Of a DNA stretch of 41,906 bases, positions 112 through 15,623 are shown piece after piece (positions within the stretch are counted from its first letter, which is position 1; every line of letters begins with the position of its first letter). Source of the stretch: a virus; IMG/VR virus record IMGVR_UViG_3300006810_000108, positions 1 to 41,906 of that record; one strand, given 5' to 3'. The notes beneath the pieces are model-generated. The model was not told the origin of the DNA. It made no database searches and saw only the letters and a list, made by a program, of their open reading frames with translations. A program made the translations under genes and the position numbers.

Positions 112-418
112 CGATCTCGCAGACGTTGCAACGCTCAAGGCTACGACTTCAAACGTTTCCATTAGCGCCGACGTTGTTTTGACGGATAAAGCACTGCATC
201 TTGTTAATACTACCGCAGCTCGTTCTTTAACTTTACCAGCCGCGTCTGCTAACATGTTTTTAACTATCAAGGACATTTCAGGCCAGGCGCAAACAAACAA
301 TATAACTTTGACGACGCCCGGAGCTGAGTTGATCGATGGGGCAGCGACTTACGTTATTGATGCTAATTATAACGCGGTTTCAATTGTAAGCGATGGAACA
401 GACTATTTTGTAATTTAG
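2..418 (+). CDS. Tail fibre protein A, copy 1 (5' truncated by window edge)
   Basis: The reading frame is already open at base 2 and runs to a TAG at 416-418, so the true start lies upstream of the window. The 138 residues match the C-terminal part of the complete 238-residue paralogue at 39209-39925; about 100 N-terminal residues are missing here. The first 111 bases are identical to 39508-39618, after which the copies diverge although the protein stays similar. The composition (short beta-strand-like stretches, many Thr/Ala/Asp, no catalytic motif) fits a phage fibre or fibre-cap domain. It is followed directly by fibre B. The fibre role is inferred from position and from the duplication at the tail end. 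Confidence 0.7.
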   Translation, partial: VATPGFLTTQTRITNNSGGPLDLSVIIFQGAFAEKLDDLADVATLKATTSNVSISADVVLTDKALHLVNTTAARSLTLPAASANMFLTIKDISGQAQTNNITLTTPGAELIDGAATYVIDANYNAVSIVSDGTDYFVI

Positions 419-473
419 TAAACATCCGCAAAATGCGGCTATTCGTTTTAACGCGAAAATTTAAAGGATTATT

Positions 474-2468
474 ATGTCATTTGTGTCAAAAAACCCGAAG
501 TTTAATTCAACAATTTTAAGCGACGTTGCAGCGGGTAGCGTTGATGCTCCTAAACTTGGTTCTCATAAGCTGATTAACAGAAACGGACAAATATTTATCG
601 TTGACGATACGGGCGCAGAAACGGAAGTAGGGAGCGCGGGAAGTGGCGAAATAAACTACATAGAAGAATGGAACGCTGAGACAGCTATTACAGACTGGAA
701 TACTTACAAAGACGCGGCTCAAGCCACACCCGAGGATGGTACGCTAGGAACTGCAAACATTACTTTCACTAGGCAAAACTCTATAGTTTTACGTGGCCGA
801 GAAAGTTTTAAGATTACAAAAGACGCATTTGACAGGCAAGGCGAGGGAGCCAGCTACGACTTTACGATTAAAGCTCAGGATGTTTCTAAAAAGCTTAAAA
901 TACAGTTTGATTTTAAAACCGATGAAGATGCTGGTTACGCAAGCGGTGACTTAACCGTCTACATCTATGATGTGACAAACGCTACTTTAATCACTCCCGT
1001 AGATACCGAGATAATACGCGGGCAAAACATATTTCAGACAAGCTTCAACTCGACTACGTCTACTTCATATCGTCTCATTTTTCATATTGCTACTACAAAC
1101 GCTAGTGCTTGGGATGCTTACATTGATAACGTGATTGTAGGCCCTGGAATGACAAGCCAGGGTGCTGCGATTGGGCCTTGGACTGCGTTTACTCCCTCAT
1201 TTCCTAATGGATTAAATGATGGTGGGGGCGTTACCGAGGGCTGGTTTAGGCAAGTAGGAGACACAATGGAGATTTCCGTTGTTGTTTCCTTCGGTGCATC
1301 ATCTCCAAGTGTTACCAGCTCCCTTGATCTAACCATACCTGATTCTAAGACAATCAACAGTGATCTAGTAGGAACAAATTCTCAAACAACAATAGTGGGA
1401 CAAGCCTGGGGGACTAATGCAGGCGTTGCGCGTTACAATGGCACTATAATTCAGTTAAACACCACAACAGTAAGAGTAGCCGAAGAGGGTGGGGTTAACT
1501 CAAACTGGGATAACAACTCTCCATTTGCTTGGGGATCAGGAGACAGCTTTTCTCTTGCACTTGCGGTTCCCATAACCGAATGGGCTGGCAAAGGCATAGT
1601 ACCTATGCTTGCTCAGGATAATTTATTTAGCGGGACTTGGACGCCGACAAGTGCGACTCATAACAATTTAACTGGCACAGCGGTTTACGGTACAGCCAGA
1701 TACACTAGAACAGGAAACAAAGTATCGGCTACGATCGACGACATAACAGGGTTAACCGTTACATCCGATGCGACGAGGACTTGGATGCGTATAGATGCTT
1801 CAGATCTACCTGGATTAACAAACGATACAGAGTTTTTTGGTTCAGCGAGTGTTGCTACTACTGGGCAGCCAGAGGTAACAGCCTCGATAAAATCGGCATC
1901 AGGTTCAGATAAAACTTTTTTGGTGATATGGAAATCAGATGGTGGCGGCGCTGCTTTAACCGCGGCTTCTATAGACATGCATTACTACACAGAAACAGAC
2001 CAATCTCAAAACTCGCTTGTTGGGTTTTCTGAGGCTACTGAAAGTAACTTAGGGCTGGTTAAGAAAAATAAATGGCAGGTTAAGACCTTAGGCGCGGATA
2101 AGACAACCGCAGGTACATTTATCACATTCAATGGTTTAACCGTGGGCAAAAACTATCGTGTAATATGTCAGGCTAATATTATCCCCGAAGTAGACGACAC
2201 CGTAGGAATCCAAATTGTTCACGATTCTAATATATTGGCAGAAACTAAAACTAGACTAGGGCCCTCCTCGGCAGGACTGTCTTTTGGTGACCTAAATCAG
2301 ACAACGATTGCGGAGGCTATATTTACAGCAACAACAACAACGGCTACATGTGATGCGTTTTCAATCACCTCACCGAGCGTTATAAATGCCGATGGAAGCA
2401 GAAGCCTAACATGGGCTATGATCGAAGAGCTAAACAACTACGAAGCTGAAACAACGGACTTCACATAA
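474..2468 (+). CDS. Tail fibre / receptor-binding protein B, copy 1
   Basis: 664 residues with an AAAGG ribosome site nine bases before the ATG. Residues 1 to about 230 form a conserved N-terminal block that includes a jelly-roll-like, carbohydrate-binding-type stretch; it is nearly the same in the paralogue at 39984-41906. Residues about 235-520 carry two variable beta-rich domains, the first ending in the anchor VPITEWAG. The C-terminal block from the SLVGF motif onward is again shared with the paralogue. Constant ends with an exchangeable middle are typical of modular receptor-binding proteins. No enzymatic motif is visible. It lies between fibre A and lysis genes, a usual place for host-recognition proteins. 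Function is inferred from architecture and context. Confidence 0.7.
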   Translation: MSFVSKNPKFNSTILSDVAAGSVDAPKLGSHKLINRNGQIFIVDDTGAETEVGSAGSGEINYIEEWNAETAITDWNTYKDAAQATPEDGTLGTANITFTRQNSIVLRGRESFKITKDAFDRQGEGASYDFTIKAQDVSKKLKIQFDFKTDEDAGYASGDLTVYIYDVTNATLITPVDTEIIRGQNIFQTSFNSTTSTSYRLIFHIATTNASAWDAYIDNVIVGPGMTSQGAAIGPWTAFTPSFPNGLNDGGGVTEGWFRQVGDTMEISVVVSFGASSPSVTSSLDLTIPDSKTINSDLVGTNSQTTIVGQAWGTNAGVARYNGTIIQLNTTTVRVAEEGGVNSNWDNNSPFAWGSGDSFSLALAVPITEWAGKGIVPMLAQDNLFSGTWTPTSATHNNLTGTAVYGTARYTRTGNKVSATIDDITGLTVTSDATRTWMRIDASDLPGLTNDTEFFGSASVATTGQPEVTASIKSASGSDKTFLVIWKSDGGGAALTAASIDMHYYTETDQSQNSLVGFSEATESNLGLVKKNKWQVKTLGADKTTAGTFITFNGLTVGKNYRVICQANIIPEVDDTVGIQIVHDSNILAETKTRLGPSSAGLSFGDLNQTTIAEAIFTATTTTATCDAFSITSPSVINADGSRSLTWAMIEELNNYEAETTDFT

Positions 2469-8953: not shown

Positions 8954-9856
8954 ATGGGCAAAAAAACTTATCAGTCTCCCAGCTCCGGAGAAATCGAAAA
9001 CTATTTAACAGCTCACGGGTATACCTTCAAGCGTTATTCGTCCGGATCAGGACACGACAATCTTAAATTAGAAAAAGCGCCATGTTGTGGACACAAGCTG
9101 AGCTTTTCGATAAACCACGTTACCGGACAATTTGAGTGCTGGCATACTGAATGTAGCAAAAGAGGTAATTGGGTGACTTTGAGAAGAATGTTAAACGATC
9201 CGCTTCCATTTGATAAGCAAATCGTAAATTTCAAGCAAGACTGGAAAGACTTTTTCCAGATGCAACAACGTGGACCAGTCACGAGAAATAAATATCCTAA
9301 AGTTTTAAAGTATTTACATGATCGAGGAATGAGCAACGAAACGCTGGACGCTTTTCGAGTATCGAATAAATATGATACAGCCGTGCGGTTTCCCATGTAC
9401 GCCTGGCAAAATGGCGTTTGGGAGATGGTAAACGCAAGAATAATTCAGGTTATTGGGGAAAAGAAAAACTGGTTTGATATAACGGGTGGGCCTACTCATT
9501 TGATGATAGGCAATCATCTAATGGAAGAATCTAGCGAGAAAACTATATATATTTTTGAGGGTCAATGGGACGTGTTAACAGCGTACGAACTTGGAATGAG
9601 AAACGTATTTTCGTTGCCCAACGGCGCGAGTAGCGTTAAACAGGAAATGCTGCAATATATTCCCCAAGATTGGGGTATCTGTATATGTGTTGACATGGAC
9701 CCATCCGGAGACGCATGCGCTGAAAAGTTTTTTAATATGTTTGGTACGCGCGTATCGCGAATACACATGCCATATAAGGATTTAAATGATTGGTATAAAG
9801 AGGAGCCTTCTTTAACAAAAGAGGAAGTTATAAGCCGTCGATCCTACATGATATAA
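8954..9856 (+). CDS. DNA primase (zinc-binding and Toprim domains)
   Basis: 300 residues, AGGAGAAAA ribosome site. An N-terminal zinc-binding module has C44/C45, H47, C62 and C67 (CCGH ... ECWHTEC). The Toprim domain has E202-G203 with D206 (IYIFEGQWDVLTA) and D247-x-D249 (CVDMDPSGDACA); the later KDLNDW motif is also typical. This is the primase half of a T7 gp4-like enzyme, making RNA primers on the lagging strand. The TAA stop at 9854-9856 is followed in the same frame by an open stretch leading into the helicase gene, so primase and helicase may derive from one fused gene. Confidence 0.85.
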   Translation: MGKKTYQSPSSGEIENYLTAHGYTFKRYSSGSGHDNLKLEKAPCCGHKLSFSINHVTGQFECWHTECSKRGNWVTLRRMLNDPLPFDKQIVNFKQDWKDFFQMQQRGPVTRNKYPKVLKYLHDRGMSNETLDAFRVSNKYDTAVRFPMYAWQNGVWEMVNARIIQVIGEKKNWFDITGGPTHLMIGNHLMEESSEKTIYIFEGQWDVLTAYELGMRNVFSLPNGASSVKQEMLQYIPQDWGICICVDMDPSGDACAEKFFNMFGTRVSRIHMPYKDLNDWYKEEPSLTKEEVISRRSYMI

Positions 9857-9922
9857 GCAAGAGAGAAAAAATATAGAAGGATTAAAAGAAATATTTCAGA
9901 GGCAGAAAAGCAAAGGCCTATC

Positions 9923-10654
9923 GTGGAAACTCCATTTGCTGGATTAAATCAGCTTATGGGAGGGGGATTTTTTCCCGCGCAGATGACAAGTATATTAGCC
10001 GCCTCCGGAGCTGGAAAGACAACTCTGGTAAATCAATTAGCGGTTTTTACTGCGAACAAGGGGGTAAAAATTGGGCTAATTTCTTTAGAGGGGTCCGAAA
10101 GGGAACTAGACGAAAAACTAGACAGAACGATTACCGGGGTAGTGGGTGAGGGCTCCGACGAAAACGTGCTTAAAAACCTGCTTGTAAGTTCGCTAAAAGG
10201 CAAATATGTTTCCCATGCACAGATTTTAGAAGAGTGCAATATCATGGTTTATGATGATCGGTGCAAGATTGTGATTGTTGATAACTTGGACTATATCACT
10301 AGCGGCATAGATCAGAAAAAATATGAATCAACAGCGGCTTTGATGGATTTGACCGATAAAGCCAAAATTCATCTAATACAGCTTTGGCAATGCAATAAGA
10401 ACGATCCAAATAAGCGGGTTAATTCTGGAAGTCAAAAGGGAGAAAGCCGAATATTTCAAGATTCGCACAATTATATAAGCATGAATCAGAGATATCCAGA
10501 CGGCAAAGAACTAGAAATGGAAAAAAACAGGGAAAAGGGACGGGGAAAGTTTTTAATCAATTTAGATTATGATGAAAAAACAAACACGTATATTGAAATT
10601 ATCGAGAATAATACTGAAAAACAGCACAATTTAAAACTATTAAATTTACAGTAA
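9923..10654 (+). CDS. Replicative DNA helicase, DnaB / T7 gp4 C-terminal type
   Basis: 243 residues from GTG 9923, with AAAGG eight bases upstream. Walker A is AASGAGKTT (residues 26-34), the motif 1a glutamate is in SLEGSE, Walker B is IVIVDNLDY (D120), and the QLWQCNK strand and the SGSQKGESR segment follow, as in hexameric RecA-fold helicases. It starts directly at the helicase core. The frame is open upstream to 9857 in phase with the primase, with no ATG, GTG or TTG before 9923 in that interval. The likely job is fork unwinding together with the primase. No DnaB N-terminal domain is present. Confidence 0.82.
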   Translation: METPFAGLNQLMGGGFFPAQMTSILAASGAGKTTLVNQLAVFTANKGVKIGLISLEGSERELDEKLDRTITGVVGEGSDENVLKNLLVSSLKGKYVSHAQILEECNIMVYDDRCKIVIVDNLDYITSGIDQKKYESTAALMDLTDKAKIHLIQLWQCNKNDPNKRVNSGSQKGESRIFQDSHNYISMNQRYPDGKELEMEKNREKGRGKFLINLDYDEKTNTYIEIIENNTEKQHNLKLLNLQ

Positions 10655-13046: not shown

Positions 13047-13919
13047 TTAAAAGAATTCTCTTTGCTCGCAATTTTCTAAACGTCTATTCCATTTTTCTAG
13101 CTTACGCTTGTAGTGATTAACTTTTTTATTTTCTCTTTTGCATTCTGGTTTTGGATCGGGCTTTAATTTACAATCTGAATTAATACCGCATATTTCAACA
13201 TCGTTTTCATTTGCATATTCATAGGCCCAATTTTGAAACCCATTTAAAAAAGTAGAACTCAACAGACTGCGATCCACGATATTGCCCCGGCTATTAACCC
13301 CGATAACAATATGATTGTCTTTTCTGGGATTTGATATCGATAACATTGCAGGCCCACCGGAATCGCCAAAACACAAAGCTGTATCGTCGTTAGTATAAAA
13401 ATATTGTCCCCCGGCAATGCCGTTGCCAGGTAAACGAGTTACTTTTGCTAGGCCCCATCTTAATTTTCCATCGTTGCCTCCTCTACGTTGCGACCCATCT
13501 GGACGGCGTGGGTAGATACAGCCGTATCCAGATAGAGTTACTTCCTCGTCAATTTCAGGCGATCGTTTACCTATAGACGCCGGTTTAACATCCATGTCTT
13601 GATTAGTTTTACATAACGCAAAATCGTAACTATATAAATTTTCATAATCGGGGTGATGTTCGCATTGAGCAGAAAATACTTGTTGATTGACTACAAATTC
13701 CACCGGATGGACCGAGCCGTTATTTCTAACACAATGGGCGGCGGTTAAAATTGTACGTTTTCCGACTATTGTTGCGCTACAACGTGAACGCCCAGAACTT
13801 ATATATATTACTTCGGGAAACTCTCCCGCATCTGCTATTCTACCGCCAATTAGTGTCGGTGATTCAACAGATAACGCCCCCTTCGATAGAATAAACAATA
13901 GCAAAAATAATCGTCGCAT
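13047..13919 (-). CDS. Secreted S1 (chymotrypsin-fold) serine protease
   Basis: 290 residues. The N-terminal signal peptide (MRRLFLLLFILSKGALS) is followed by LIGGRIADAGEFPEV, equivalent to the IVGG start of mature S1 proteases. The catalytic triad is H62 (TAAHC), D99 (SYDFAL) and S187 (GDSGGP). The residue matching trypsin position 189 is Ala181, not Asp, so trypsin-like Arg/Lys specificity is not expected. A C-terminal extension of about 50 residues carries several Cys and many basic residues. GAAGGGG precedes the start. A secreted protease is an unusual phage cargo; it is divergent from a secreted nuclease. It probably acts in the periplasm or outside the host. Confidence 0.85.
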   Translation of the reverse strand: MRRLFLLLFILSKGALSVESPTLIGGRIADAGEFPEVIYISSGRSRCSATIVGKRTILTAAHCVRNNGSVHPVEFVVNQQVFSAQCEHHPDYENLYSYDFALCKTNQDMDVKPASIGKRSPEIDEEVTLSGYGCIYPRRPDGSQRRGGNDGKLRWGLAKVTRLPGNGIAGGQYFYTNDDTALCFGDSGGPAMLSISNPRKDNHIVIGVNSRGNIVDRSLLSSTFLNGFQNWAYEYANENDVEICGINSDCKLKPDPKPECKRENKKVNHYKRKLEKWNRRLENCEQREFF

Positions 13920-13994
13920 AATATTTTCCCCTTCAAAAGTTGTAATATTTTGACTATTTTATCACGTCTAATTGATGAGACAATGAGGGATAAG

Positions 13995-14450
13995 ATGATT
14001 AAAAAAATAACAATCGCTTTTTTTTTATTGATGCAAACTAATATCCTAGCGATCGATTTTAATAACGTAACATTTTTACAAAATTATGACGGTGACACTA
14101 TTAAAGTTAATATCAAAGATATTCCAGAACTTTTTGGTAAAAAAATATCTGTGCGAGTCAAAGGAATTGATACTCCCGAAATAAGATCCAAAAATAAATG
14201 CGAGAAGTTTCAAGCACAAGCAGCGAAGAAAATTGTTTATATGCAATTGTCTAACGCTAAAAAAATTAATTTGAAAAATTGCGTTAGGGGAAAGTATTTC
14301 AGAATTGTTTGCGACGTGTTGCACGATGATAAAAATCTGGCAACAGAATTGTTAAATAAAAATTTAGCTATTAAATATCAGGGAGGAAAAAAAATAGTTG
14401 TAGATTGGTGCAAAATAAAAAGTTCATATATTTTACAGAAAAAAGGGTAA
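13995..14450 (+). CDS. Secreted thermonuclease-like (SNase) nuclease
   Basis: Start chosen at ATG 13995 behind GAGGGATAAG; this gives 151 residues opening with a signal peptide (MIKKITIAFFLLMQTNILA). Catalytic positions of staphylococcal nuclease are all present: D32 and D34 in YDGDT, R54 and D59 in VRVKGIDTPE with E62, and R103 in KYFRIV as the probable second arginine. Cys at 69, 96 and 106 could form disulfides after export. It would degrade nucleic acid outside the cytoplasm. It is divergent from the secreted protease with a 75-base shared upstream region, so the two could be co-regulated. Confidence 0.82.
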   Translation: MIKKITIAFFLLMQTNILAIDFNNVTFLQNYDGDTIKVNIKDIPELFGKKISVRVKGIDTPEIRSKNKCEKFQAQAAKKIVYMQLSNAKKINLKNCVRGKYFRIVCDVLHDDKNLATELLNKNLAIKYQGGKKIVVDWCKIKSSYILQKKG

Positions 14451-15253: not shown

Positions 15254-15623
15254 ACTACTAGAAAAAAGCGAAAACGGCATGCACAGAATAAAAGCCCTTC
15301 GAGATTTTGGCGAAGTAAAAAAGGGTGATATAGGCGGGTTTGTGCAGTCAGAAGATAATCTGTCTCACGATGGAGATTGTTGGTTATATAACGACGCTAA
15401 AGTTTCTGGAGATGCTAGGGTTTTTGGAGATGCTAGGGTTTTTGTAAATGCTATGGTTTCTGAAAATGCTAGGGTTTCTGGAGATGCTAGGGTTTCTGGA
15501 GATGCTAGGGTTTTTGGAGATGCTAGGGTTTTTGGAAATGCTATGGTTTATGAAAATGCTAGGGTTTGCAGTTATGCTCGGTTTGAAGGTGAAGCGAAAG
15601 GCAACGAAATAATAACATCATAA
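15240..15623 (+). CDS. Hexapeptide-repeat (left-handed beta-helix) phage protein
   Basis: 127 residues. The N-terminal part (residues 1-45, ending KKGDIGGFVQSEDNLS) is a conserved lead-in common in phage versions of this protein. Residues about 52-110 are about ten six-residue repeats of the type G-D-A-R-V-F / E-N-A-R-V-S, predicted to stack as a left-handed beta-helix. The DNA repeats at 18 bases. Its role in phages is not established. It overlaps zinc-ribbon 3 by 14 bases. Confidence 0.7.
   Translation: MKKFELLEKSENGMHRIKALRDFGEVKKGDIGGFVQSEDNLSHDGDCWLYNDAKVSGDARVFGDARVFVNAMVSENARVSGDARVSGDARVFGDARVFGNAMVYENARVCSYARFEGEAKGNEIITS
15393..15566 (+). repeat. 18-bp tandem coding repeats
   Basis: About ten imperfect copies of an 18-base unit such as GGAGATGCTAGGGTTTTT encode the hexapeptides of the 15240-15623 protein. 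Several neighbouring copies are identical, which suggests recent copy-number change by slippage. Confidence 0.8.

Follow-up and report, generated by a model that had tools for sequence, protein, structure and literature searches.

A T7 gp4-type primase-helicase probably split by a stop codon in its interdomain linker

In phage T7, primase and helicase activities reside in one polypeptide, gp4, which raises the question why a viral contig should encode the same two parts in the same order and frame with a single TAA between them. The window analysed here is the whole IMG/VR record IMGVR_UViG_3300006810_000108 (41,906 bases). Its primase gene starts at ATG 8954 and finishes with the codons ATG ATA TAA, the stop occupying positions 9854-9856. 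The same frame (frame 0) is open from 9857 until a TAA at 10652-10654; downstream of the primase stop it reads AREKKYRRIKRNISEAEKQRPI as far as GTG 9923, the first standard start, as ATG, GTG and TTG are absent from the 22 sense codons of 9857-9922. The original prediction, made from the sequence, had described exactly this arrangement, which we confirm, and had offered recent splitting of a fused enzyme with a new GTG start, stop codon readthrough or a sequence error as explanations. Taken alone, frame sharing is little proof of anything. With a stop chance of 7.1% per codon, calculated from base composition, 22 open codons are expected with p = 0.20, or p = 0.066 per gene pair once the shared frame (1/3) is included; a shared frame also occurs in 7 of the 29 close same-strand gene pairs of the window, where gaps are mostly very short. 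The pattern gains meaning because the homologues in related phages are fused.

Both reading frames match consecutive stretches of one family, phrog_239 (DNA primase/helicase), at profile positions 41-299 for the primase and 332-602 for the helicase, and the T7 gp4 structures 5ikn and 6n7i align with the joint profile over both domains. The primase (8954-9856, plus strand, 300 aa; phrog_239 E 2.1e-24 over residues 38-284) aligns to T7 gp4 chain 5ikn and combines a T7 gp4/DnaG-type zinc ribbon (residues 44-67, 9083-9154, CCGH...C.H..C), whose cysteine pattern recurs in the fused relatives, with a TOPRIM domain (9548-9790; PF13155, residues 199-279) containing the motifs IFEGQWD and VDMDPSGD and the invariant residues E202, D247 and D249. 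The helicase, if read from GTG (9923-10654, plus strand, 243 aa; phrog_239 profile positions 342-602, E 9.8e-25), consists of a RecA-type hexameric helicase core only. Its Walker A motif (P-loop, 10001-10023) is evident in the sequence and the alignment, and Walker B and the C-terminal arginine region were recognised by eye in the alignment. Toprim_2 in the primase and DnaB_C in the helicase pass the Pfam cut-offs. The window helicase has no DnaB N-terminal domain; its match to the phrog_19 profile begins at position 327 of 621, with the RecA core. Of the traits of gp4-type enzymes, the zinc-ribbon TOPRIM primase and the RecA-type helicase are in place, whereas a single polypeptide with both domains joined by a linker is absent in the window and present in the relatives. 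Neither half is decaying, because each domain has retained its motifs and the helicase/primase identity ratios between the window and complete fused relatives (0.76-0.89) match those among these relatives (0.68-0.89; ratios for the relative L026 are skewed by the intein it carries and by the end of its contig). Judged by these ratios, the helicase appears to be under no relaxed constraint. The split is a small evolutionary change, which was probably tolerated since neither half is damaged.

The nearest relative, IMGVR_UViG_3300049855_000106 (L013), was found via its terminase (66% identical there) and is syntenic with the window. Its primase-helicase forms one open reading frame of 598 aa that contains no stop and has the same operon neighbours. 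A motif scan recovered three further metagenomic phages, all with fused enzymes: L021 (588 aa; longer locus L031), L022 (589 aa) and L026 (IMGVR_UViG_3300033141_002656), the latter fused through the P-loop. Single-sequence scans of viral and genome contigs returned no close homologues. In five remoter phages, primase-helicase is likewise a single CDS, and a maximum-likelihood tree with these as outgroups unites the window and its four fused relatives in one clade (100/100). Given that the window lies inside a clade of fused relatives, the fused enzyme is the ancestral state and the split arose later. The comparison with related phages proposed in the original prediction thus gave fused forms in 4/4 near relatives and 5/5 outgroups; relatives with the two genes in different frames, which were to speak against a split, did not appear. 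Splitting of a fused enzyme is supported by these phages and by the position of the stop, whereas the word "recent" is not demonstrable with a nearest relative that shares only 44% identity over both parts (52% in the primase, 39% in the helicase). As a separate observation, the helicase P-loop of L026 is interrupted by an intein with Hom_end_hint and homing-endonuclease domains (about 387-1394, minus strand).

The TAA at 9854-9856 (plus strand), a position without a stop in the relatives, sits inside a linker of approximately 30 codons, or about 5% of the gene (567 codons). It follows the last conserved primase residues (…LTKEEV) and precedes the helicase core (IVETPF), and the linker is the only site where a stop spares both domains. 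The alignment of L013 with the window is gap-free from the second codon past the stop to the residues TP. The former linker (9857-9922, plus strand) is open in frame and consists of 52% A and 74% purine. Of all coding segments, 99.8% have a higher coding margin than these 66 nt, and the flanks on either side as well as the linkers of the four relatives are normal, which suggests that the linker is a non-coding leader in the window. This sign is not decisive, since the frame-0 score itself is only in the lowest ~5% of coding segments and is not unusually low when compared with dinucleotide-keeping shuffles. In a profile of the relatives, the frame-0 linker beats shuffled linkers by ~10 bits, or by 8 bits if the window is left out of the relatives' alignment. 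The gain comes almost wholly from the last ten linker codons, mostly …PIV, and in-frame homology reaches about ten codons upstream of GTG 9923, fading short of the stop. As these last codons resemble the relatives, the linker may have ceased to code only a short time ago, or only in part. An AlphaFold model of the read-through frame had a mean pLDDT of 60.5, with linker residues 299-318 below 50, which is too low to judge a docking helix.

How, then, might the helicase be started? GTG 9923 is the only standard start ahead of the helicase core. It is preceded by a weak Shine-Dalgarno-like AAAGG (9912-9916, plus strand; -2.6 to -3.4 kcal/mol), its score in a home-made scheme intended for ranking only is equalled by 25% of internal start-like codons, and few initiation regions of the window are as strongly structured as its surroundings. 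In the fused proteins, the position matching the V codon formed by this GTG is mostly hydrophobic, so that the codon may simply have been inherited. The "new GTG start" of the original prediction is thus weakly supported: it is the only standard option before the core, but it has a poor start score and its valine suits this family position. A better ribosome site is found upstream: a Shine-Dalgarno-like AGAAGGA (9875-9881, plus strand; -5.5 kcal/mol at an aligned spacing of 8, in weakly structured RNA) would serve ATT 9893 (9893-9895, plus strand), a candidate non-standard start scoring 0.05, a value that includes an arbitrary penalty for non-standard codons. Initiation there would take in the residual linker homology. 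AUU start codons are very rare. Reinitiation after termination at the TAA is another possible route to the helicase. Among the fused relatives, the linkers of L021, L022, L026 and L013 are rich in Met and Asp/Glu just ahead of the helicase, and the best sites among their Met codons rank high as internal starts in 3/4. We considered a conserved internal start at these Met-rich linkers and dropped it, as a rough combined estimate from the ranks was not significant; with the same reservation, these codons may hint at a helicase-only form like the shorter gp4 of T7.

We consider it probable that a fused primase-helicase of the T7 gp4 type underwent fission in this lineage, as a derived change, and that its two parts are now translated separately. 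The ancestor would have been a single polypeptide of ~590 residues, as in all four closest relatives, in whose linker the TAA arose, with approximately four codons lost beside it relative to the nearest relative. The primase would end at residue 300 and the RecA core of the helicase would be translated separately from the same operon, by new initiation at GTG 9923, perhaps through termination-reinitiation, or at ATT 9893. The two proteins would then cooperate non-covalently. Fission is well supported by homologues that are fused, by the derived placement of the split, by the confinement of the stop to the linker and by two domains that are intact and equally constrained. Counting against it are the poor start at GTG 9923, the in-frame resemblance of the last linker codons to the relatives, a frame-0 linker score that is not low beside dinucleotide-keeping shuffles, and a search across the site that gave no second sequence of the same strain. 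In addition, a helicase started at GTG 9923 would lack the linker that is required for active hexamers in T7 (PMC9198812, PMC7231222).

Several alternatives have to be weighed against fission. The TAA could have come from an error in sequencing or assembly, or from a nonsense mutation private to the sampled genome, in a population that makes the fused enzyme and of which the stop is no stable feature. Every near relative is fused, the last linker codons resemble the family in frame, and a pattern spanning the site found no second sequence in viral contigs, all of which fit this idea. A random error would, however, hit the linker in only ~5% of cases, and the composition past the stop is odder than one changed base would give. 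In addition, a contig labelled with the metagenome number 3300025853 is identical to the window over 9807 bases without mismatch or gap, so that consensus quality looks high, although this stretch lies off the site. Error or private mutation is therefore unlikely, and sequence error in particular is an unlikely source of the TAA. Partial readthrough, yielding some fused primase-helicase beside free primase in a manner akin to the two forms of T7 gp4, would accord with the open frame, with a post-stop region as long as in the nearest relative, with the weakness of the usual helicase start and with the importance of the linker for T7 hexamers (PMC9198812). Yet the hallmarks of readthrough genes, namely a leaky stop context, a suppressor tRNA or a stimulatory RNA structure, were not found at 9854-9856: the record holds no suppressor tRNA, the local RNA fold is unremarkable (z = -0.19), TAA closes 20 of the 31 window genes counted, and the post-stop coding score is low. 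UAA is generally the least leaky stop. Readthrough, as put forward in the original prediction, is thus unsupported and we regard it as quite unlikely. A variant in which the split itself is functional, with the helicase made from AUU 9893 and its good Shine-Dalgarno sequence or by TAA readthrough, and with translation setting how much fused enzyme is made relative to free primase and free helicase, is conceivable though unlikely.

Two further readings are very improbable. If two compensating frameshifts had moved the linker into frame +1 (about 9852-9925), the TAA would be a mere by-product, and frame +1 is indeed open over 9852-9944 with an ordinary coding score. Profiles of the close relatives nevertheless assign it 45.7 bits, as opposed to 46.3 without any linker and 55.8 for frame 0; it adds nothing to the PHROG scores over frame 0 and has no family match of its own. 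By eye, the +1 linker had the look of a DnaB-type helix, a candidate that the profile scores reject and that we take as mostly refuted. Equally hard to credit is that primase and helicase were always separate in this lineage and that fusion happened in the relatives. The T7-like phage phiKMV does have separate genes, but the nesting of the window with four fused relatives, the five fused outgroups tested and the match of both halves to a single fused family oppose this account.

That a phage can encode primase and helicase in separate genes is known from phiKMV; we class the window's enzyme as a T7 gp4-type primase-helicase in split form. The L013 enzyme (T7 gp4-type, PHROG 239) shares its domains, their order, the operon neighbours and a comparable linker length, and differs in being one 598-aa polypeptide rather than two open reading frames parted by a linker TAA. 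In phiKMV, primase (ORF14) and DnaB-like helicase (ORF15) are adjacent and in the same order, whereas the genes lie in different frames with a 43-nt gap and no stop in a fused frame, and belong to other families (phrog_47; phrog_19, profile 192-584, with sequence ahead of the core). Similar to the window helicase, the mycobacteriophage DnaB orthologues D29 Gp65 and the Wildcat Gp80 core comprise the RecA core alone, although they have no origin from a gp4-type fusion adjoining its primase; truncated Wildcat Gp80 without linker and N-terminal domain still unwinds DNA, and D29 Gp65 has been reported as a nuclease (PMC4523182). T7 gp4 itself occurs as 63 and 56 kDa proteins, the shorter, helicase-competent form being made by internal initiation (PMC9198812); in contrast to the window, translation of this form begins at codon 64, within the primase part, and the full form is produced too. 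In the separate primosomes DnaG/DnaB and T4 gp61/gp41, the helicase has its own primase-binding N-terminal domain, which the window helicase lacks. Our literature search turned up no account of such a fission, a weak sign of novelty given the limited collection. Two forms of one enzyme, fused and split, at 44% identity provide a natural test of the need for the covalent link and for the linker that is considered essential for T7 hexamers. Moreover, "missing" helicase starts in phage annotation may signal fission rather than error.

Other parts of the window merit brief mention. Between 16.4 and 27.6 kb, it is matched by L010 (IMGVR_UViG_3300019756_000080), a strain with 93% identity, and by the 9.8-kb contig L002 with 100% identity, and the primase lies outside both. 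Tail-fibre-like genes at the contig ends (1-2468 and 39508-41906) resemble each other at 82-89%, offset by a constant ~39,510 bases, which points either to a duplication in tandem or to a circular map whose assembly ran through, drawing on two strains. A trypsin-family serine protease with an apparent signal peptide (13047-13919; PF00089, E 1.9e-18) is encoded on the minus strand, opposite to its neighbours, and a Staphylococcal-nuclease homologue, also with an apparent signal peptide, is found at 13950-14450. At 15357-15608, 18-nt tandem repeats encode a YdcK-like beta-solenoid of six-residue repeats.
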